A stretch of DNA of 28,782 nt, from IMG/VR virus record IMGVR_UViG_3300008113_000819, positions 1-28,782 of that record; one strand, 5' to 3'. Origin of the DNA: a virus. Each line of letters opens with the position of its first letter. The first letter of the stretch is position 1. The notes below the pieces were generated by a model, which had not been told where the DNA came from, searched no databases, and saw only the letters and a program-made list of their open reading frames with translations. This document shows positions 3,947 to 28,782 of the stretch, in pieces. The position numbers were made by a program, and so were the translations under genes.

Positions 3947-4837
3947 TCAAATCACAACCCAGCGTGAGCCGGTAGAGACGGTGACCACGACTGGCGCGGT
4001 GATCGCGGTCAGCGACACCGACTGCGAGTTATTCACCTCGTACGTACCTTCGCCGCCGGTGCCGGTGCCCAACACCGTGATCGTCGTGTTAGCGCTAATG
4101 CCCGAACCCAAGATCACCGAACCCACACCCACAACCCCCGAGGTGACGCTATCAATCGTCAGCGTCGTGCCTGCGATACTACCGGTGCCAACGAAGCCGC
4201 CACCCAGCGTAATCGGGCCGGTGGTCATGGCATTCTTGGTCGAGGGGATTGTATAGCTGATCGTGACCACCTGGTCGTTCTCGATGAACACCTCATCAGG
4301 CCCACCGCCGGTGGCACCCGCATCGCCGCCTACCTGACCCCAGGCACCATTGATGTAACCCTCGAACAGATCGAGCGTGGTGTTGTAGCGGAACATGCCT
4401 TCCGATGGCGAGGCAGGCCGGTCAGTCGTTGCCCCCACGGGCATCTGCACGTAGCCGGTGCCGGAGAAGGTGACATCCAGCGTGGCTGAGAGCGTCGTGA
4501 ACGCGCCGCTGTTCGGCGCCACGTCGCCAATCGCTGGCGGCGAGCCGAACGACAGGTTGTCCACAGGCACCAGGATGTTGTCGGTGGTGTACTGCTGGAC
4601 GTCGTTGCTGTCAGTGACTAAGAACTTGTACGCGATGGTCGGCTGCAACCAGATGTTGGCCATGCCGCGCGAATCCAAGATGATCGGGTTGGTGTTAGCA
4701 GTCGCACCCGTCTGGCTGGTATAGGTCGCAATCGGCGTGGTCGTGCCGCCTGCGTAGGTGTAGACCTTACCAGCGACGAGCGGGTCGCCGTTAGCGTCGA
4801 AGAATTGCTGCTTGGGTGTTGGGGTCAAGGATGCCAT
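3947..4837 (-). CDS. Tail fibre/spike with head-binding-like N-terminus (296 aa)
   Basis: Residues 1-92 match a widespread phage tail-attachment domain: TPTPKQQFFDANGDPLVAGK, then VYTYAGGTTTPIATYT, then ANTNPIILDSRGMANIWLQP. This block anchors many spikes and fibres to the virion. The middle is a short linker with a fibre-type motif (RPASPSEGMFRYNTTLDLFEGYINGAWG, residues about 140-167). The C-terminal module begins VTISYTIPSTKNAM and ends VVVTVSTGSRWVVI. It is interrupted at about 212-281 by a domain common in phage structural proteins (GSIAGTTLTIDSVTSG..GTGTGGEGTYEVNNSQSV). The same C-terminal module, uninterrupted, ends the large fibre at 9802-11289. Two bases separate its ATG from the preceding ejection gene's coding end. 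Confidence 0.83.
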   Translation of the reverse strand: MASLTPTPKQQFFDANGDPLVAGKVYTYAGGTTTPIATYTSQTGATANTNPIILDSRGMANIWLQPTIAYKFLVTDSNDVQQYTTDNILVPVDNLSFGSPPAIGDVAPNSGAFTTLSATLDVTFSGTGYVQMPVGATTDRPASPSEGMFRYNTTLDLFEGYINGAWGQVGGDAGATGGGPDEVFIENDQVVTISYTIPSTKNAMTTGPITLGGGFVGTGSIAGTTLTIDSVTSGVVGVGSVILGSGISANTTITVLGTGTGGEGTYEVNNSQSVSLTAITAPVVVTVSTGSRWVVI

Positions 4838-9817: not shown

Positions 9818-11289
9818 CGTGAGCCGCTGGCTACTGTCACCGTCGTGCCGCTCGCCACCGTAACCGGCCCAGCTGACATGCCCGACGTACCTGCTGCAAT
9901 GGTATAGCTGACATCAATCGTTAGATTATTGACAAATATGCCATTGCCCGCTATGAAATGCTCAGATGTTAATTCACCTGTGCTGGGTTTGTACAGATAT
10001 TTGGCGTTGCTGGTATAGATGGTCGACAACGCGCCGGAGGTGGCTGCCGCAAAGGTCGGGTAGACATTTGTTGCGGTTGTGGTGTCGTTCGTAATCGTCG
10101 CGCCCGAGCCAGTAGCCAACGCCCAGACAGCCGTCGTGCCATTCGAGGTCAGAACGTAGTTGTTCGCCCCAATCGGCAGGCGGGTCGAGCTGTTGGCACC
10201 GTTGCCAATGATCAGATCGCCCGTGCTGGTGACTGGCGACAAGGCATTAAAGGCTGCGCTGGCAGTTGTCTGGCCTGTACCGCCGTTAGCAATCGGCAGC
10301 GTACCCGTCACTTGGGTAGTCAGGTCAACCCCAGTCAGCGTGCCACCGAGTGTCAGGCTGCCGCTGGATGTCACCGTGCCCGACAGGCTGATGCCGTTGA
10401 CCGTACCGGTGCCAGAGACGCTGGTCACCGTACCGACGTACTGATCATTGGAGGTGATGGTGAAGTTTGGGTACGTGCCGGTAACGCTGGTCGTACCTGC
10501 GCCTGTCAGCGATACGATCTGGTCGGGTGCGGTGTTGGTGACGGTAAAGCTGGGGTATGTGCCTGTCACGCTCATACCCGTGCCAGCCGCTATGGAAACG
10601 ACTTGGTCTGGTGCGGTATTAGTTACGGTAAAGCTGGGGTAAGTGCCTGACGTGCTAATACCTGTGCCACCAGTAAGTGACACCACTTGATCAGGCGCCG
10701 TATTTGTAATGGTAAAGCTAGGGTACGTGCCCGAGGTGCTGATGCCTGTGCCGCCGGTCAGCGACACCACCTGATCTGGCGCCGAATTATCAATCGTGAC
10801 CGCCACCGAGCCGTCATAGGTTGTACCAACGCTGTACGAAATGCCAGTGCCCGCCGTCAACGCATTGGCTACACTGCCTGCTTGGCCGGTTGTGTTTTGG
10901 TTAAGCGTTGGCACGTCGGCAACCTGAATGGCGCTCAAAGCCGCGTTAGTGCCGTTTGAGCGCAGGTAGTAGCCTGACGTTTGCGTGCCTGTTAGCGCGG
11001 TAATGGCGGCGGCTGCCGTAGTCTGGCCTGTGCCACCGTTATCGACATCCAGCGTGCCTGCCAGCGTGATGGTGCCTGATGTTGTGACAGGGCCGCCTGA
11101 AGTCGTCAGGCCTGTCGTGCCGCCGGAGACATTGACCGAAGTGACCGTGCCAGAACCGCCGCCTGTATTGGCTTTGTTCAGCAGGTTTAGGAAGAACCGG
11201 TACCAATCACGCGACACCATCCCCGTCCGGTCGTCGGTGATTGGCGACTGGTTCTTAGGTATCTGCGGTTCGTTATCGGCGTTAGGCAT
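9802..11289 (-). CDS. Repeat-rich tail fibre protein (495 aa)
   Basis: The N-terminal segment (PKNQSPITDDRTGMVSRDWY, then RFFLNLLNKANTGGG) is a common anchor in phage fibres. Two NGGTGQTTA(S/A) motifs (about residues 84-92 and 335-343) are also typical. Between them lie four near-identical units of about 31 residues with the pattern APDQ(V/I)VS(L/I)-x5-G-x-(S/T)-x2-GTYP-x-FT(I/V)(T), and a fifth diverged one. The C-terminus (VSYTIAAGTSGMSAG, then ending VASGSRWVVM) is the same module found, interrupted, in the spike at 3947-4837. Its position just after the gp10-like gene is where P22 encodes the gp26 needle, so a needle-like role is an alternative. Almost no charged residues occur in the repeats. 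Confidence 0.85.
   Translation of the reverse strand: MPNADNEPQIPKNQSPITDDRTGMVSRDWYRFFLNLLNKANTGGGSGTVTSVNVSGGTTGLTTSGGPVTTSGTITLAGTLDVDNGGTGQTTAAAAITALTGTQTSGYYLRSNGTNAALSAIQVADVPTLNQNTTGQAGSVANALTAGTGISYSVGTTYDGSVAVTIDNSAPDQVVSLTGGTGISTSGTYPSFTITNTAPDQVVSLTGGTGISTSGTYPSFTVTNTAPDQVVSIAAGTGMSVTGTYPSFTVTNTAPDQIVSLTGAGTTSVTGTYPNFTITSNDQYVGTVTSVSGTGTVNGISLSGTVTSSGSLTLGGTLTGVDLTTQVTGTLPIANGGTGQTTASAAFNALSPVTSTGDLIIGNGANSSTRLPIGANNYVLTSNGTTAVWALATGSGATITNDTTTATNVYPTFAAATSGALSTIYTSNAKYLYKPSTGELTSEHFIAGNGIFVNNLTIDVSYTIAAGTSGMSAGPVTVASGTTVTVASGSRWVVM
9802..11289 (-). repeat. Four or more ~31-residue tandem repeats within the fibre gene
   Basis: Within the fibre gene, about 10440-10800, units with APDQ(V/I)VS..GTYP-x-FT recur at intervals of about 93 bases. 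The protein copies are nearly identical, while the DNA copies differ at many third positions, so the repeats are old and kept by selection on the protein, with little recent DNA-level copying. Confidence 0.78.
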
Positions 11290-11767
11290 TGGTGCCGGTC
11301 AACACTAACTCGGCACCCATGATGGCGATCTTGACGGGGTCGGTGCCGGACACCTCGTACACGCGGTCACGCAACTTGTCGGTCATGCCCAGCCGCCGCC
11401 AGAAGGCACGGTAGCCGTAGTTGCCGATCTTGCCCATGCCCGTCCAATGCTCGTTTGACCAGGTGTGGCCACCGTCATCCGACCAGCGCATGATGACCTG
11501 CGGGTCGTTGCCTTGGCCGGTGATCAGACCAACACCTGTCTCGCACTCAAGCTGCAGCGTGTGCTGGGCAGTACGCTTTAGGTTGTTCTGGCGGGTGGGC
11601 AGTGCCCGCCACGACCGCAACCAGGTTGTCGTCAGCAAACACGTCCAAGTCGTACGCGTAAATCTTGCCGTTCTGGAAGTCCCCAACGACGACCTCGTTG
11701 TTGTAGAACATCTGGCAGTTGGCACGGTGGCGAATAAAGTCACCGTTGGCAAAGCCTGCACGCTCAT
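11282..11767 (-). CDS. gp10-like stabilisation protein, C-terminal part in shifted frame
   Basis: From about position 11625 leftward this frame encodes the conserved C-terminal end of the P22 gp10-like family: WLRSWRALPTRQNNLKR, QLECETGVGLITGQGNDPQV, WSDDGGHTWSNEHW, RRLGMTDKLRDRVYEVSGTD. Upstream of about 11625 the frame (MSVQALPTVTLF..) is an artefact read in the wrong frame, so the ATG at 11767 is probably not a true start. Joined to the first 360 residues of the preceding frame, these 113 residues give about 473 aa, close to the 472 aa of P22 gp10. The joint needs a +1 shift, meaning one extra base or a ribosomal frameshift. It overlaps the fibre gene start by eight bases. Confidence 0.75.
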   Translation of the reverse strand: MSVQALPTVTLFATVPTARCSTTTRSSLGTSRTARFTRTTWTCLLTTTWLRSWRALPTRQNNLKRTAQHTLQLECETGVGLITGQGNDPQVIMRWSDDGGHTWSNEHWTGMGKIGNYGYRAFWRRLGMTDKLRDRVYEVSGTDPVKIAIMGAELVLTGTNA

Positions 11768-12704
11768 GCCATGCGCCGGTAGCTACGTCAAACACCCAAG
11801 TGCGTTGGGCGCTTGGAAAGCTCAGCACGTAAAAGGCATGGCCGTCTTGCTGATAGGTAAAACCAATGGCGTCCGAGATGGAGCCGTAGCTCTGGATAGC
11901 GAATTCGACCGCATGGGTCGAGACACGCTGGCCTGTATAGCCTTGAGCACGGAACACCACGCCTTGACCACGGGCGTCAGACCCAAGCCAAAACAGCGAG
12001 TTGTCCATCTTGGCAACCGAGTAAGTAGCTGCGCAGCCTAGCTCGTTGACGGCACCTTGGATGCGAGCCAACGGGAAGGGTGAGGTGCCTGCGTTGTACC
12101 AGACCTCAACCGACTGGGTGCCAAACAGCCACACCTCGCGGTGGTCGACAAACAGCGACACCAAGTTGTCCGGCATACCTTCGGCGCTGGCAAAGCTCAG
12201 CGGGTCAAGCTGCGTGCCATCCAGCAGCTCAGACACCCAAAACTTCTGGGAGTTAGGCTCTTGGAAGATAAAGTAGCCATCCAAATAGCCGACTGTTACC
12301 GCGCCGGGAAAGTCTACGTCCGTGATCTCGGCGTACTCTTCGGTTGACGCGTCGTAGATAAACCCTTCAGGGTTTGCCGCGATGAAGAGCTGCGTGCCGT
12401 TGTCAACCATCGACACAGGCCCAGTGCCCGACACGCCGCCGATCTGGGTAACCGTCCAGTTGGTGTCAACCCGATACAGCCGAGAGCCCGACACCACGTA
12501 GCCATAGCCGCCGTACGACCACAGGCCACGGATTGGGCCCGTACCGACGGTGGCCAATCGGCGCAAGCCTGGCGCGCGGTTCAGGTACGCAGGCTCGTTG
12601 CCTTCTGGCGACGGGGTAATTTCTGGGTACAGGTTGACCATACGCGCCGCCGCAGCGTTCAAGCTGCGCGCGACGTACGATTGGCCTAAGATGGGCGTCT
12701 TCAC
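11547..12704 (-). CDS. P22 gp10-like packaged-DNA stabilisation protein, N-terminal part (frameshifted)
   Basis: The gp10 family forms the tail hub that closes the portal channel and holds packaged DNA. The start (GTG at 12704, KTPILGQSYVARSLNAAAAR, then MVNLYPEI) and later motifs (NRAPGLRRLATVGTGPIRGL, QSVEVWYNAG, NELGCAATYSVAKMDNSLFW, GDFIRHRANCQMFYNN) are family-typical. The frame is good to about residue 360 (DLDVFADDN). After that it reads a low-quality tail (VAGTAHPPEQPKAYCPAHAAA) and stops, while the real C-terminus continues in the +1 frame. The GTG overlaps the stop of the 53-aa gene (GTGA). A GC-rich inverted repeat at 11591-11611 lies beside the break. Either a sequencing or assembly error, a mutation, or frameshifting explains it. 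Confidence 0.85.
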   Translation of the reverse strand: MKTPILGQSYVARSLNAAAARMVNLYPEITPSPEGNEPAYLNRAPGLRRLATVGTGPIRGLWSYGGYGYVVSGSRLYRVDTNWTVTQIGGVSGTGPVSMVDNGTQLFIAANPEGFIYDASTEEYAEITDVDFPGAVTVGYLDGYFIFQEPNSQKFWVSELLDGTQLDPLSFASAEGMPDNLVSLFVDHREVWLFGTQSVEVWYNAGTSPFPLARIQGAVNELGCAATYSVAKMDNSLFWLGSDARGQGVVFRAQGYTGQRVSTHAVEFAIQSYGSISDAIGFTYQQDGHAFYVLSFPSAQRTWVFDVATGAWHERAGFANGDFIRHRANCQMFYNNEVVVGDFQNGKIYAYDLDVFADDNLVAVVAGTAHPPEQPKAYCPAHAAA

Positions 12705-21258: not shown

Positions 21259-22796
21259 TACGCACCCATCCAGCCGGTCGCGGCTGCTACGCGGGGCGTG
21301 TAGCCATCACTGCGCCGTGCCGCACGCTCGTAACCCGACTCGCGGCTGGCCACCGGGAACGCGAACGTCACCGCGAGGGCGTCTGCTGCATCCGGCGAGG
21401 CGAGGCCGCGTGACTTCATCTCTTTCTTGCCTTCCAAATAGATCGTACCCGACGAGTCGGGCTTCTTCATCGGGCCGGTCAAGTCCGCTTTTAACTGCCG
21501 ATCATTCGGGATGCTGGCCGTCTTCAGCCACTCCTTCATCGCGCCCCACATCTCGGCGCGCTTGTTACCCCACATGACCGGCTTGCTGGACTTCCAGCCG
21601 AAGTTCACTCCCCGCACCTTGTATCGCTGTTCTTTTAACCTGTCAAGTATGCCGTAGCCAAGACCACCTTCGTCGATAATTGTCAGTGCTGGCCGGTACT
21701 CTTCAATCGCGTCGATCACCCGTCCGACGGTCGTCATGGTGTCCTCGCCGTGGTAGCGTTTGATCGCTACCAAGTCGCGTCCTTGCCGGACGACGATGAC
21801 GGTTGCGTCCGCGCCGCCGCGAGCTGGGTCAACGCCGATAACAATTGGCGCCGTTTCGTCCTTGTAGCGTGGCCGACCGGCGGCGTCGTCGATAGCACTC
21901 GCACCAATAAACTGATCTTCGCCAGCCGATGGAAATTCACCGTAGACTTCAACCCGAGCCTGCGGCGAATCTTCGCCATACTCCGCAATGATCTGCTCAT
22001 AGATTTGCTTGTCCGTATCTTCGACTGTGCGTGAGTCGATGTTCTCCGTCTGCCAGAAGTTGCGCTTGGCGTGGAAGCACTCGTAGAAGTAGCCCTGGTT
22101 ACGCCGCGGGTTGGAGAACGCAAACCAATACCGGTCTAGGATCGGTTCCGTAAAGAAGCCCGCACCCACCGACCAGATGGCGTCGGGGATACCCGAGGCC
22201 TCATCGAAGATCAGCATCATGCCGTCGTGGTTGTGCACACCCGCGTAGCTGTCGGGATTCTCTTCCGACCAGAGCTTGCCCTCCGCTGCCCAGTAACGCG
22301 TACCCTTCTTCAAGTCGCGCTCGACCAGCTCAGTCAGCCACTTGGCAGGCGTCAGCTTAGTTGCGCTGATCTCCCACCAGTGGTTGTTGATCACCATCGC
22401 CTGCCACTTAGTCAGCTCACCCCAGGTGACTGACCGGAGCTGCGCTTCACTGTTGGCGGACACGATGACGCTCGATCCGATGCGGGTGGTCAGCATCCAT
22501 AACACGAGCCAGCTGACTAGGGCCGACTTGCCGATACCCCGGCCAGACGCGACCGCTGTGCGCAGGGCGTCCATGTCGACTTGACCTTTGTTGGTCTTGA
22601 TGTGCGTGGCGATCCTGCGCAGTATCTTGCGCTGCCATGTGCGCGGGCCTTTGAACTTAGCGAGCGGTGTGTTGGGTTGCCCCCACGGGAAGGCGAACAG
22701 CACGAACGCCTCGGGATCATCTGCGAGCTGTGGCGCCCACAGCCGGGTCATCAGTAACTGCTCGCCCTCGGCGTCATAAATGGGTTGCTGGGCCAT
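21258..22796 (-). CDS. terL: Terminase large subunit (packaging ATPase/nuclease)
   Basis: This 512-aa motor protein pumps DNA into the procapsid and cuts concatemers. The N-terminal ATPase has a Walker A of the form SGRGIGKS (residues 84-91) and a Walker B LIFDEA (195-200). The C-terminal RNase H-like nuclease shows VIGVDPARGGAD (D323), LTIIDEGG (D375) and SPDAADAL (D469 and D472) as likely metal ligands. An adaptor-like VSANSEAQLRSVTW follows the first strand. Length is normal for the family. The ATG overlaps the preceding stop by one base (TAATG). The immediate upstream gene is an unknown protein instead of terS, which sits one gene further up. Confidence 0.95.
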   Translation of the reverse strand: MAQQPIYDAEGEQLLMTRLWAPQLADDPEAFVLFAFPWGQPNTPLAKFKGPRTWQRKILRRIATHIKTNKGQVDMDALRTAVASGRGIGKSALVSWLVLWMLTTRIGSSVIVSANSEAQLRSVTWGELTKWQAMVINNHWWEISATKLTPAKWLTELVERDLKKGTRYWAAEGKLWSEENPDSYAGVHNHDGMMLIFDEASGIPDAIWSVGAGFFTEPILDRYWFAFSNPRRNQGYFYECFHAKRNFWQTENIDSRTVEDTDKQIYEQIIAEYGEDSPQARVEVYGEFPSAGEDQFIGASAIDDAAGRPRYKDETAPIVIGVDPARGGADATVIVVRQGRDLVAIKRYHGEDTMTTVGRVIDAIEEYRPALTIIDEGGLGYGILDRLKEQRYKVRGVNFGWKSSKPVMWGNKRAEMWGAMKEWLKTASIPNDRQLKADLTGPMKKPDSSGTIYLEGKKEMKSRGLASPDAADALAVTFAFPVASRESGYERAARRSDGYTPRVAAATGWMGA

Positions 22797-23482
22797 TATT
22801 TACCTTGCAGTCGCTTCAAGTCTTGCAGGTGGTCGGAGCCTATAAAGTACACACCTTTAGGCTGCGACAGCAGCCAGCGTTGGCGGTGTTCGTTAGCTTT
22901 GTTGGCCATCTGACGTGCGGGCGTGTCGTCAGCATCCCACATCTCTTGCTCACCCCGGTCTAAGAACGCCGCTACGTTTTCTTTTGACGCCGGGCGCTGG
23001 GCTTCTTGCAAAAACTCCGGCCCCATGTTTTGCAGAAAAGTCGCCAAGGTTTTGCTGTCAAACTTGCGGTCTTTGAAATACCCAAACTTGTCTTGGTTTT
23101 CCAAGATGCTGTCAAATATCGTCTTGTCGCTAGGCAGCACGTCTTTTTGCTTGTTTACGTCCGTGTTGGTAAACAGCGTAAACAGAAATTCTGACGGGTA
23201 CCCTTTGACTGCTTTAGCGGCTGCGTCGTCCCACGACCCTTTGTACGCTACGCCCGGCAGCTTGTCGCCGCCCGTGCCTTCGTAGTACGCGCCGTGTTGC
23301 GCAGCTTCTGCTTTGATGCGAGCAGGCAGTGTCATGGGCTCACCATGCACTTGTCCGACAAAGGTTACGCCAGGGCGCGGCGAAAAGGTTTGTAGCGGCG
23401 TGGTGGGTGCGGTGTACGCGTCAGCGCCGACTGCTTGTCGCAGTACGTTAACCGGCGTAGGTGCGAGAGCGTTCTGTGGCAT
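22796..23482 (-). CDS. Unknown 228-aa protein between terminase genes, possible TraB/Tiki-like fold
   Basis: I do not recognise this as a known packaging protein. It shows GVTFVGQVHGE at 38-48 (hydrophobic strand then G43-x-x-H46), a helix, then AYYEGTGGD with E68. Near the C-terminus NEHRQRW (R200) is followed by VYFIGSDHLQDL (G215-x-x-H218). A GxxH..E..R..GxxHL arrangement is what the TraB/GumN and EreA/ChaN (Tiki) superfamily shows, so a distant relation is suggested; the middle segment (about 90-180) is unrelated in appearance. The start overlaps terS by 35 bases and the stop overlaps terL by one base. It could equally be an accessory packaging factor. Confidence 0.6.
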   Translation of the reverse strand: MPQNALAPTPVNVLRQAVGADAYTAPTTPLQTFSPRPGVTFVGQVHGEPMTLPARIKAEAAQHGAYYEGTGGDKLPGVAYKGSWDDAAAKAVKGYPSEFLFTLFTNTDVNKQKDVLPSDKTIFDSILENQDKFGYFKDRKFDSKTLATFLQNMGPEFLQEAQRPASKENVAAFLDRGEQEMWDADDTPARQMANKANEHRQRWLLSQPKGVYFIGSDHLQDLKRLQGK

Positions 23483-23900
23483 GTTCCAGATACTCCGGTT
23501 TCTGTTCCGTGATCAGCCCGTCGATGACGCGGGACTGCGCCTGTTGCAGCGCCTGGGTGATACTGATCTTGTTCGTGACGTCGACGCTGATCTCCTGACG
23601 CGCCGTCCAACCGTGGGCGTGCTGCAGGATCGCTAACGCCGCCTTGGCGTCACCATTACGGGCTGCGTCGTGCAGCAGCGCAGACGCCTCCAACTCGCCG
23701 TCAGCGCGCCCCTTTTGCTCAGCCATCGTCGCCACCGGATCCATCTCGCAGAGGTGCCGGTACTCCTGCGGCAACATGCCTGCAGCTAACGCCAGTGTGT
23801 CGCCCTTCAGTCCGAGCTTAGCTGCGTCGTAGATGGCCTGTAGGCGCGACTCCGTGGCCTCGAGCTTGCGAACCGTCAGCGGTAACGAATGTATGCCCAT
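23448..23900 (-). CDS. terS: Probable terminase small subunit
   Basis: The 150-aa product is helical. Residues about 10-55 (LEATESRLQAIYDAAKLGLK, then GDTLALAAGMLPQEYRHLCE) look like a helix-turn-helix DNA-binding region. DGELEASALLHDAARNGDAK then AALAILQHAHGWTARQEI, at about 67-105, is the central motif of a common phage small-terminase family. The C-terminal segment (ITQALQQAQSRVIDGLI) is helical and could contact TerL. It is the first gene of the leftward operon, 35 bases overlapping the next. No good ribosome-binding site lies just before this ATG, so either the start is inefficient or the message is partly leaderless. Confidence 0.72.
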   Translation of the reverse strand: MGIHSLPLTVRKLEATESRLQAIYDAAKLGLKGDTLALAAGMLPQEYRHLCEMDPVATMAEQKGRADGELEASALLHDAARNGDAKAALAILQHAHGWTARQEISVDVTNKISITQALQQAQSRVIDGLITEQKPEYLEHATERSRTYAG

Positions 23901-23994: not shown

Positions 23995-24110
23995 GTTAGT
24001 AAGCACTCACTCTTTTTGTTGTCAGCCTAGTAAGTTAGTAAGCACTCACTAACTTTTGCCAGATTAGTAAGCACTAACTAACTTGCCCAGGTTAGTGAGC
24101 ACTTACTAAC
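23995..24110. repeat. Four 20-bp imperfect palindromic repeats (iteron/operator-like)
   Basis: Copies at 23995-24014, 24034-24053, 24063-24082 and 24091-24110 follow the consensus GTTAGTAAGCACTCACTAAC. Each has the inverted half-sites GTTAGT and ACTAAC around an eight-base centre; copy 1 lacks most of the right half. Start-to-start spacings are 39, 29 and 28 bases. A dyad-symmetric binding site repeated in tandem suggests a dimeric repressor or an initiator protein. The sites lie between the terS start and the DnaA-box cluster. Confidence 0.85.
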
Positions 24111-24123
24111 CGATGTTAGCGAT

Positions 24124-24472
24124 TGTGGACCATGCAAATTGTCCACACAAATTAGCGCCAGCGCGAACGTAAAAGTGTTATCAAAAAAGAATCGAATCTG
24201 TGGATAACTTTTTGCCGGACAAAATGTTGCCAAAAAGCTATGTGGACAATGTGGACAATCGTAGAGGCCGTTTTAAATCGCTGCGCGTGCGAGAGCGTGC
24301 GCTCATCCGGACAATCTATTAGCAGTATGATAACATTTTTAAGTTCCTATAGTTCAACAGATTTTATTGTCCACATTGTCCACAAATAGCTAAAACCCGC
24401 ACTGTCCCTCGAATGTGGCGTGGACAATCGCGCCGATTTTCATAGTCCACACTCTTGTCCACGCTGTCCACA
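24124..24472. other. Cluster of DnaA-box-like 9-mers, candidate replication origin
   Basis: A perfect E. coli-type box (TTATCCACA on the minus strand) is at 24199-24207. Exact TTGTCCACA occurs at 24139-24147, 24367-24375 and 24376-24384, and its complement at 24241-24249 and 24250-24258. One-mismatch copies are at 24124, 24419, 24443, 24455 and 24464. Three of the groups are head-to-tail pairs with 9-base spacing (24241/24250, 24367/24376, 24455/24464). Eleven sites in 349 bases is far above chance. TTGTCCACA is the preferred box in some bacteria, which makes host DnaA binding reasonable; a phage-encoded protein is the alternative. Confidence 0.7.
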
Positions 24473-24501: not shown

Positions 24502-24529
24502 TTGACACTTTTCTTTTCTCTGCTATACT
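24502..24529 (+). promoter_or_regulatory. Strong sigma70-type promoter for the rightward operon
   Basis: A perfect -35 TTGACA (24502-24507) and -10 TATACT (24524-24529) are separated by 16 bases, and TG at 24521-24522 extends the -10. Transcription would start near 24536, about 58 bases before the first ATG (24594). It lies just right of the DnaA-box cluster, and box copies at 24455-24472 come within 30 bases of the -35, so protein binding there could influence it. Confidence 0.85.
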
Positions 24530-26861: not shown

Positions 26862-26887
26862 ACCCGCCCTCCGGCGGGTTTTTCTTT
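26862..26887 (+). terminator. Intrinsic terminator of the rightward operon
   Basis: ACCCGCC-CTCC-GGCGGGT forms a perfect seven-pair stem with a four-base loop, followed directly by TTTTCTTT. It ends the rightward small-gene operon and lies next to the stop of the converging primase gene. Read in the opposite direction no U-run follows, so it acts mainly on the plus strand. Confidence 0.9.
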
Positions 26888-28782
26888 ATTTGACTAAGCG
26901 AACAGCGGCCGGAACCGGTACCTGTTCGACCATGCGCCTAAGTTCTGATTTCGGCGTGTCGGCGAGCTCTGGCGCGCAGAATATGTGCTTTTTGGCGTCA
27001 TACTCGCGTGACTTCAAGCGCCCCATGTCGACCCAGCCCGCCTCTTTGAGCGCGTGCAAGAGCGCCGCTTGCGGTATCTTCACCCCTGATGGCGCGCCAT
27101 GCACAATACGCTCACAAAGCGCGTAGAAGGGCGAAGCAACTACGCCGGTTGAGAACTCACCCAAGCGCGCGCGCATCATGTCGACCAGATAAGACTCGGC
27201 AGTCGAGCGCCCCTGCTCGACCATGATCATTTTCGCCTCGGTCAACGGCGGCGCAGCGCCTGGATTAAATCGGCTCACGTCACGCTGATAGAGCCATCCT
27301 GCGGCCGTGGCCACGCCACCGGCGGCGTACCAGTCCCATATCGCCTGCGCGTCACGCTCGGCCATCCTCGGCGCGTCTGAGTACGTTACAAACCAGCGCC
27401 GATCGTCCGATGGCAACGACAGCGGCACGCGCTCATTAGAGAACGCTAGAACGAAAATGCGGTTCAGCGCCTGATATGGGTGCAGGCCCTTGCGGTTCAC
27501 TTGCAGGAACTCGGGCGGCGCTGCAATGATGGGCTTTAGATGGTTCTCAAGCGCGCGTCGATCTTTCGCTTCCGCTTGGCGCAGCTCTTCGAATACCATC
27601 ACTTCCGACTCGAGCGCGTAGCCCCACTGCGACATAATTTCTTCGTTACGCACAATCGACACGTTCGCGAGCGACTCGCCACCGATGCCCCATAGCAGCG
27701 GTTGCCACATAGTGTCTTTGCCCGACCCTGGGTTACCGATATGCAGCACCGCATGGTTAATCTTTTTGTTCGGGTTCTGCAGCTTGTAGGCCATCACGTT
27801 TAGCACATGCTCGCGCTCAGACACGTCCGGGATCATCCGCTCGACATGCTCGAGCCAGACGCGCGGGTTACCAGTAGCCGCCGCCGGTCGGTGATCAATC
27901 CAGCGGTTACCGTACACCTGCCCCTCGCGCGCCACCTGAACGCTCTCGCCTGCCGCGTAGGTGATCCCGGCCAACGTCAAGGCGCCCAGCTTCTGGCGGT
28001 TCTCATCAAAACAGACTGACGCTTCAATCCGGCGCTTGTAACGGCTCGGGTGAATCGAGAAACAGGTCACATGCCGGTAGAGCGCATTGAAGGTGCTGCG
28101 CGCGACTTCCCGGCGGTCGTGCAGGTCGAAGTACGCGGTCACATGCCGGTAGAGCGCATTGAAGGTGCTGCGCGCGACTTCCCGGCGGTCGTGCAGGTCG
28201 AAGTACGCATCCTCGGACTCGATATACGCGTAGCGGGTATACCAGTCGGCCTTTTCGACCCGGTCGCGCTGCTTTTTCTCAACATCGGCGATTATCTCGG
28301 CCGCGGTATCGGGAAATGCTTCGGTCGGTGTTAGTTGCGACAACGTGTGGCTCATCGTCTGCGCCAGCAGCTCGTCACGCAGCCCAGGCGCGTGCTTGGG
28401 GCCGCCATTGGCCGCGACCCAATCGAGGAACACGTTCGAGTCCAAGTCGATGCAGTGGCTGTGCAGGCAGCAGTAAGAACGCGTAGCAGGGCTATAGCGC
28501 CCTTCCGGGTTGCCATCGCTATGCTCGGCACTGTTCGGGCAGATGACGCCCGCCCATCCTGCAGGGTTCGGTAGCGACAACAGCAGCCCCTGCCCCGAGA
28601 GCCACGCCATCACGTCATCCGCCCCATCGTCCGACAAACGGATCGGACGCACACCAAGCGACTCGGCAGGCGCTGGCGTGACACCAAGCGCGTCGCAGAT
28701 AGCCTCAAGGGTGTACTCGCGCTCGGGGTGGAACTCGACCAACTGCGCAGCGAACCGCTCGCGTCCGGGCTTTAGATTGATC
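26886..28782 (-). CDS. Primase-helicase (SF3/DUF5906-like), 5' end beyond window
   Basis: The gene is open to the right edge; the reading frame continues upstream as INLKPGRERFAAQLVEFHPE, so the TTG at 28742 is probably not the start and the true start may lie just outside. Numbered from 28742, a zinc-ribbon-like region has ICPNSAEHS (67-75) and CCLHSHC (91-97). The helicase core shows Walker A GNPGSGKDT (336-344), a Walker B-like VMVFEEL (382-388), FVLAFSNERVPL (430-441) and SDDRRW (445-450). Residues 179-202 are repeated exactly at 203-226, between the zinc region and the helicase. The protein would prime and unwind DNA in phage replication. It converges on the rightward operon. Confidence 0.86.
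   Translation of the reverse strand, partial: INLKPGRERFAAQLVEFHPEREYTLEAICDALGVTPAPAESLGVRPIRLSDDGADDVMAWLSGQGLLLSLPNPAGWAGVICPNSAEHSDGNPEGRYSPATRSYCCLHSHCIDLDSNVFLDWVAANGGPKHAPGLRDELLAQTMSHTLSQLTPTEAFPDTAAEIIADVEKKQRDRVEKADWYTRYAYIESEDAYFDLHDRREVARSTFNALYRHVTAYFDLHDRREVARSTFNALYRHVTCFSIHPSRYKRRIEASVCFDENRQKLGALTLAGITYAAGESVQVAREGQVYGNRWIDHRPAAATGNPRVWLEHVERMIPDVSEREHVLNVMAYKLQNPNKKINHAVLHIGNPGSGKDTMWQPLLWGIGGESLANVSIVRNEEIMSQWGYALESEVMVFEELRQAEAKDRRALENHLKPIIAAPPEFLQVNRKGLHPYQALNRIFVLAFSNERVPLSLPSDDRRWFVTYSDAPRMAERDAQAIWDWYAAGGVATAAGWLYQRDVSRFNPGAAPPLTEAKMIMVEQGRSTAESYLVDMMRARLGEFSTGVVASPFYALCERIVHGAPSGVKIPQAALLHALKEAGWVDMGRLKSREYDAKKHIFCAPELADTPKSELRRMVEQVPVPAAVRLVK
28065..28208 (-). repeat. 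Exact 72-bp in-frame tandem duplication in the primase gene
   Basis: The 72 bases at 28065-28136 recur without any change at 28137-28208. The duplication adds 24 codons (AYFDLHDRREVARSTFNALY plus RHVT, twice) without breaking the frame. It lies between the zinc-ribbon-like and helicase regions. Confidence 0.95.

Follow-up and report, generated by a model that had tools for sequence, protein, structure and literature searches.

For SaPI Rep it has been reported, and for Cch2, the D5-type helicase of SCCmec, it has been shown in vitro, that the C-terminal domain binds iterons downstream of the protein's own gene (PMC7581432), and the alpha protein of phage P4 reportedly uses a winged helix to bind the repeats of its origin (PMC4234260). 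In the PLE satellites of Vibrio cholerae, the DNA-binding domain of RepA has been shown to be specific for its cognate origin, with which it covaries, and a swap of this module has been inferred at least twice (PMC8263062). The NrS-1 genome has been reported to contain only two copies of its 8-nt recognition sequence (PMC7102993).

Here we analyse an array of 9-mers in a virus contig that resembles each of these systems in part. The comparisons described below make it quite probable that the array is an iteron origin read by the phage's own primase-helicase, with one conserved DnaA box as a probable accessory, and by analogy we claim that such an origin would work like that of phage P4 or SaPI. 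With P4 it would share a primase-helicase initiator and the head-to-tail, 9-bp period of the crr type I repeats (ACTGTTCAC ACTGTTCAC); P4, however, has two separate cis regions (ori and crr), compared with the one array found here, and its primase is of the Toprim type (PMC4234260). A profile comparison (hhalign) with P4 alpha gave a probability of 1.8%, in the P-loop region only, and as it lends no support beyond the P-loop we do not claim membership of the P4 alpha family. The likeness to SaPI Rep, PriRep1 and Cch2 lies in a helicase of the same broad fold and in a C-terminal iteron reader, here predicted, but our array lies ~2.4 kb past the 3′ end of the gene with other genes between, its units are 9 bp long, and many words are sampled in one phage family. 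As in PLE RepA, the predicted DNA-binding domain of the putative initiator covaries with the probable origin; PLE have a RepA_N domain, ~30-bp iterons and two replicon types, whereas here about eight residues change, over at least ten words, in free phages. The C-terminal helicase of the NrS-1 primase-polymerase is the closest solved structure of the helicase part, although NrS-1 is reported to have only its two 8-nt copies. Lastly, the locus is like chromosomal and plasmid DnaA-box clusters in that each of its eleven 9-mers differs from a DnaA box at no more than one position, but only one of them is conserved as such.

Some other phages were also considered. In BPP-1, the interval from small terminase to primase contains no array. 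Rhodoferax phage P26218 carries its own series of 9-mers, of the TTGTAGCAG type, between repA and the presumed small terminase gene (L457 2668-3010), and a series in this position, with repA on one side and the gene preceding the large terminase on the other, suggests that the layout may extend beyond the phage family studied here. A DnaA domain-IV-like protein that stands on its own is encoded by phage MW202483 (L202 7083-7379; Bac_DnaA_C E 1.1e-17), which has a 48% identical primase; the nine near relatives tested have no such protein.

The window is the entire 28,782-base virus contig, and its gene content is that of a podovirus with a P22-type portal. Structural genes occupy the minus strand up to 23,900, a short block of rightward genes starts at ~24,590, and the array sits between divergent transcription units (Table 1). 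We named the small terminase gene from its position ahead of the large terminase gene, as in phage DSL-LC05. A complete close relative, G001, comprises 37,030 bases with a 114-base terminal repeat and is 99.8% identical over 27 kb. The packaged-DNA stabilisation (gp10-like) product at 11282-12704 is broken across two overlapping frames in the contig, which is probably frameshifted there, as G001 has a single open frame of ~476 codons. A product of 228 aa with no family matches (22796-23482) is encoded between the two terminase genes; it occurs in only some near relatives and is insertion-like.

Table 1 Coordinates of the array, the genes and promoter beside it, and the proposed initiator. Positions refer to the window.
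Feature	Position	Strand	Remark
Small terminase subunit gene	23448..23900	-	Immediate left neighbour of the array; its sequence does not follow that of the iteron
Iteron TGGTCCACA (one mismatch)	24124..24132	-	
Iteron, exact TTGTCCACA	24139..24147	+	
TTATCCACA, probable true DnaA box	24199..24207	-	Stays where relatives' iterons have changed
Iteron of pair A, exact TTGTCCACA	24241..24249	-	
Iteron of pair A, exact TTGTCCACA	24250..24258	-	
Spacer between pairs A and B	24259..24366		Candidate unwinding region
Iteron of pair B, exact TTGTCCACA	24367..24375	+	Faces pair A
Iteron of pair B, exact TTGTCCACA	24376..24384	+	
Iteron TTGTCCACG (one mismatch)	24419..24427	-	
Iteron TAGTCCACA (one mismatch)	24443..24451	+	
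Iteron of pair C, TTGTCCACG (one mismatch)	24455..24463	+	
Iteron of pair C, CTGTCCACA (one mismatch)	24464..24472	+	
Sigma-70-type promoter TTGACA-16-TATACT (11/12)	24502..24529	+	For the rightward genes; kept in close relatives
Primase-helicase (DUF5906, NrS-1-like helicase)	26886..28782	-	Proposed iteron-binding initiator; cut off at contig end
C-terminal domain, predicted winged helix (fragment residues 552-619)	26925..27128	-	
Variable wing GRLKSREYDAKKHIFCAP (fragment residues 587-604, 18 residues)	26970..27023	-	Sequence tracks the iteron sequence

An earlier note on this DNA had described a dense cluster of DnaA boxes beside palindromic repeats, and had proposed a replication origin that recruits host DnaA. 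All 11 sites of the cluster lie at exactly the coordinates given there, and the clustering is extreme: 11 of 15 sites fall within 349 bp, compared with a maximum of 1-3, and never more, per 349 bases in 100 first-order simulations. The total over the window is not above chance, with 18 9-mers within one mismatch of TTNTCCACA against 19.05 expected, and a single exact TTGTCCACA lies outside the array, at 4557. The complete genome of G001 has the same single cluster. The three head-to-tail pairs with 9-bp spacing were likewise confirmed, as was the facing orientation of pairs A and B, tandem short repeats that flank A+T-rich DNA; the most A+T-rich part (24320-24379) is 72% A+T versus 45% for the window. 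Such tandem pairing had been called unusual, which may hold for DnaA boxes, but it is ordinary for initiator iterons, those of the P4 crr type I also being 9 bp apart. The region also contains a perfect 19-nt inverted repeat (24241-24259 versus 24366-24384, separated by 106 nt), for which a long hairpin was considered and rejected because the arms are not complementary in the relative L210. Annotated phages searched at the DNA level with the array region yielded no match.

The palindromic repeats are real, comprising four imperfect copies of TTAGTAAGCACTnACTAA at 23996-24112 with a spacing of 28-39, but several relatives lack them despite having the 9-mer array: L209, L210 and L212 have them, while L208, L211, L214 and L216 have unrelated sequence instead. 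They look like operator sites of some regulator.

Comparison with relatives (GP88-type and primase relatives, metagenomic contigs drawn from IMG/VR) bears directly on how the 9-mers should be read. In the closest group, whose small terminases share 97-98% identity, every site still reads TTGTCCACA in some phages, and in L210, L212, L214 and L216 the aligned positions of the left group read TTGCC[GT][AT]CA and those of the right group mainly TGACGTGCA. Around the exchanged 9-mers, the stretch containing TTATCCACA and the TTGACA...TATACT promoter still align; in L210 and L212 the iterons are 44-51% identical, while the flanks reach 70-79% and the TTATCCACA box 100%, and among relatives that share the same word the iterons are 94-96% identical. 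Across the wider family, with each array assigned a word by counting from a list built on the same data, there are at least ten words, including TTGCCCACA, TGACCCACA, TAGCCAACA, TTGCCTACA, TTGCCCTCA, TGACTAACA, TGACCCAAA, TGACCATAA and TGACCATTT, and L210, L212 and L154 mix two words within one array. Absence of conservation in relatives, which the earlier note named as a refuting observation, is half borne out: positions and architecture are kept, but the sequence is not.

That the array is a cluster of DnaA boxes bringing host DnaA to a phage origin would fit the fact that every one of the 11 sites matches TTGTCCACA or TTATCCACA with no more than one mismatch, and that the TTATCCACA at 24199 is a classical, conserved DnaA box. 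Relatives, however, carry words that are not DnaA boxes (TGACCCACA, TAGCCAACA, TGACTAACA, TGCACGTCA) at ten sites on otherwise conserved DNA, and the word follows a phage protein (see below). Several conserved DnaA 9-mers are therefore not what we observe: ten of the 11 sites are replaced in close relatives by quite different 9-mers while the flanks and TTATCCACA stay, which leaves host-DnaA recruitment unsupported for those ten and this explanation as a whole highly improbable. As judged from these alignments, ten sites behave as phage-specific iterons and one as a DnaA box, and TTGTCCACA would be this phage's own iteron word, resembling a DnaA box by chance.

The remaining site does behave as a DnaA box. 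Among 43 relatives with other iterons, TTATCCACA is present in 30, always on the same strand and in the context GTTATCCACAG, and its distance from the start of the small terminase gene is mostly 284-368 bases; single-substitution control words had a median of 0. At least one DnaA box is thus conserved, and in L216 its position reads TTGTCCACA. We conclude that TTATCCACA at 24199 is probably a conserved host-DnaA box with an accessory role.

The phage protein in question is the primase-helicase encoded at the end of the contig. Its helicase part (DUF5906) is of the SF3/D5 type and matches the C-terminal region of the NrS-1 primase-polymerase by sequence profile (E 6.7e-12) and Foldseek (5e-11), and PriRep1 with dsDNA by Foldseek (1e-6). 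An AlphaFold2 model of the C-terminal 330 residues has a mean pLDDT of 84.5; the last 80 residues are modelled as helix-helix-strand-turn-strand-helix with pLDDT ~90, and the variable residues map to the turn that joins the two strands and to its flanks, where a wing would lie. The winged helix is only a prediction, as a Foldseek search of the PDB with the C-terminal domain by itself gave no significant match (best E 0.43). The gene also has an in-frame tandem duplication of ~72 bp at 28065-28208 (AYFDLHDRREVARSTFNALYRHVT twice), present as a single copy in the 99.8% identical G001 and possibly an assembly artefact.

When 15 gene products were compared between the two groups of near-identical phages that differ in word, the primase-helicase had the tightest cluster of diagnostic sites, six of them falling within positions 730-737 in full-length numbering (LKS..YDA to INT..HAT). 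The large terminase had a small cluster at its C terminus (488-496), based on few sequences, and the small terminase had none. Another candidate binder, a 214-aa product that differs strongly between L213 and L212 and whose gene precedes that of the polymerase, was rejected because the TTGTCCACA relative L206 has the L212-like form. In a scan of 328 protein columns over 105 phages, stratified by identity of the remaining protein, K590 (0.83) and D595 (0.71) ranked first and second (mean -0.03, sd 0.14). Nearest neighbours in the wing predicted non-majority words with an accuracy of 0.58-0.81, depending on how near the neighbours were allowed to be, compared with 0.04-0.57 for the rest of the protein and 0.27-0.50 for the small terminase. 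By covariation, then, the C-terminal domain appears to set iteron specificity.

These data also address whether the array might be a packaging site (pac/cos) for the small terminase, whose gene start adjoins it, at a distance of ~600-800 bp or less in most relatives. Small terminases that are 97-98% identical lie beside different words without a diagnostic residue, and their nearest neighbours predict the word poorly, so the small terminase does not covary with the array and we give a packaging site very little credence.

For the reading by the primase-helicase, particular wings accompany particular words: KSR..[DE].KKH with TTGTCCACA, mostly KSREFDTRKHII with TTGCCCACA, ASR....KKH with TAGCCAACA, NTRE with TGCACGTCA (in two lineages ~65% identical), [GA]TRE with TTGCCCTCA, MSREFS.RKHVFAA with TGACTAACA, and HSAE.Q with TGACCATAA and TGACCATTT. 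The words TTGCCCACA and TTGTCCACA often both pair with KSR, and nearby residues then differ (RKHII versus KKHIF). Exceptions such as L153, which has a TGACCCACA array with an ASR wing, could stem from chimeric metagenomic contigs.

Predictions were then fixed in advance and three scans of IMG/VR made by DNA pattern alone. New loci with a primase carried NTR in 5/5 cases for TGCACGTCA and ASR in 29/29 for TAGCCAACA, and earlier pattern-only TTGTCCACA loci had KSR in 54/54; TGACCCACA loci were mixed, with HSR and RSR commonest and ASR and KSR also seen. For the TGACCCACA word, only 16 of 25 were as expected. A host search returned seven distant matches in metagenome-assembled genomes; a single Rhodoferax genome contributed two of these as separate contigs, one of which has TTGTCCACA twelve times together with a KSR wing, matching expectation. 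Some metagenome-assembled genomes carry relatives, a weak pointer to freshwater Burkholderiales as hosts.

A FastTree phylogeny of 156 phages was estimated from the primase-helicase after leaving out the wing; on it, at least 43 changes of motif class are needed, and they go in step with the wing. KSR..[DE] is found in 56 of 56 TTGTCCACA phages, with nine independent pairs all in one direction (p 0.004); NTR is found in 12 of 12 TGCACGTCA phages versus 0 of 144 others, with 5/5 independent pairs; and ASR with TAGCCAACA holds in about 5.6 of 8 independent pairs, none opposite, and in 33/33 phages of the one-to-one table. The p-values are modest given a FastTree tree and few pairs, and the one-to-one table (56/56, 12/12, 33/33) is stronger than they are, though its rows are related.

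All of this evidence is comparative, and covariation alone cannot separate an origin from an operator of the same primase-helicase. The protein could bind the array mainly as an operator of divergent promoters, with the origin elsewhere, given that divergent transcription units lie on either side and that 29 bp separate the end of pair C from the downstream -35 box of a strong promoter that is conserved. However, a conserved DnaA box and facing pairs with A+T-rich DNA between them look origin-like, and the putative binder is a replicative helicase; we regard a mainly regulatory role as unlikely, and operator and origin functions are not mutually exclusive. A replication origin, as first proposed, is still the best reading of iteron pairs flanking A+T-rich DNA, a conserved DnaA box and an array that covaries with a replication helicase, although cumulative GC skew does not point to this region and gives no confirmation.

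From these patterns we infer binding, unwinding and origin activity along the following lines. Ten of the eleven 9-mers would be iterons for the C-terminal winged-helix domain of the primase-helicase, with the word set by about eight wing residues (K590, D595 and neighbours). In the simplest model, two primase-helicase assemblies would load on the facing pairs A and B, open the A+T-rich spacer, probably helped by host DnaA at 24199, load themselves, and then carry out bidirectional unwinding and priming.

Because an origin and its initiator have to change in concert, switches of specificity are expected to be rare; here, the inferred changes of iteron class include some between genomes that share more than 90% identity in most of their proteins, and the switch maps to few residues. 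Tentatively, and at somewhat less than even confidence, we suggest a large phage family in which the origin has been repeatedly re-addressed, the wing and up to ten dispersed 9-bp sites changing together to yield mutually orthogonal replicons, with conflict between co-infecting phages, satellites or origin-directed nucleases as the driver and a wing-iteron pairing that may be readable as a recognition code. One practical warning is that clusters of TTGTCCACA should not be called DnaA boxes before relatives have been looked at. The family offers a natural data set on how a DNA-binding domain can acquire a new target at many sites simultaneously, relevant to the protein-DNA recognition code and to whether conflict among mobile elements drives origin diversity, as has been argued for the V. 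cholerae satellites (PMC8263062).
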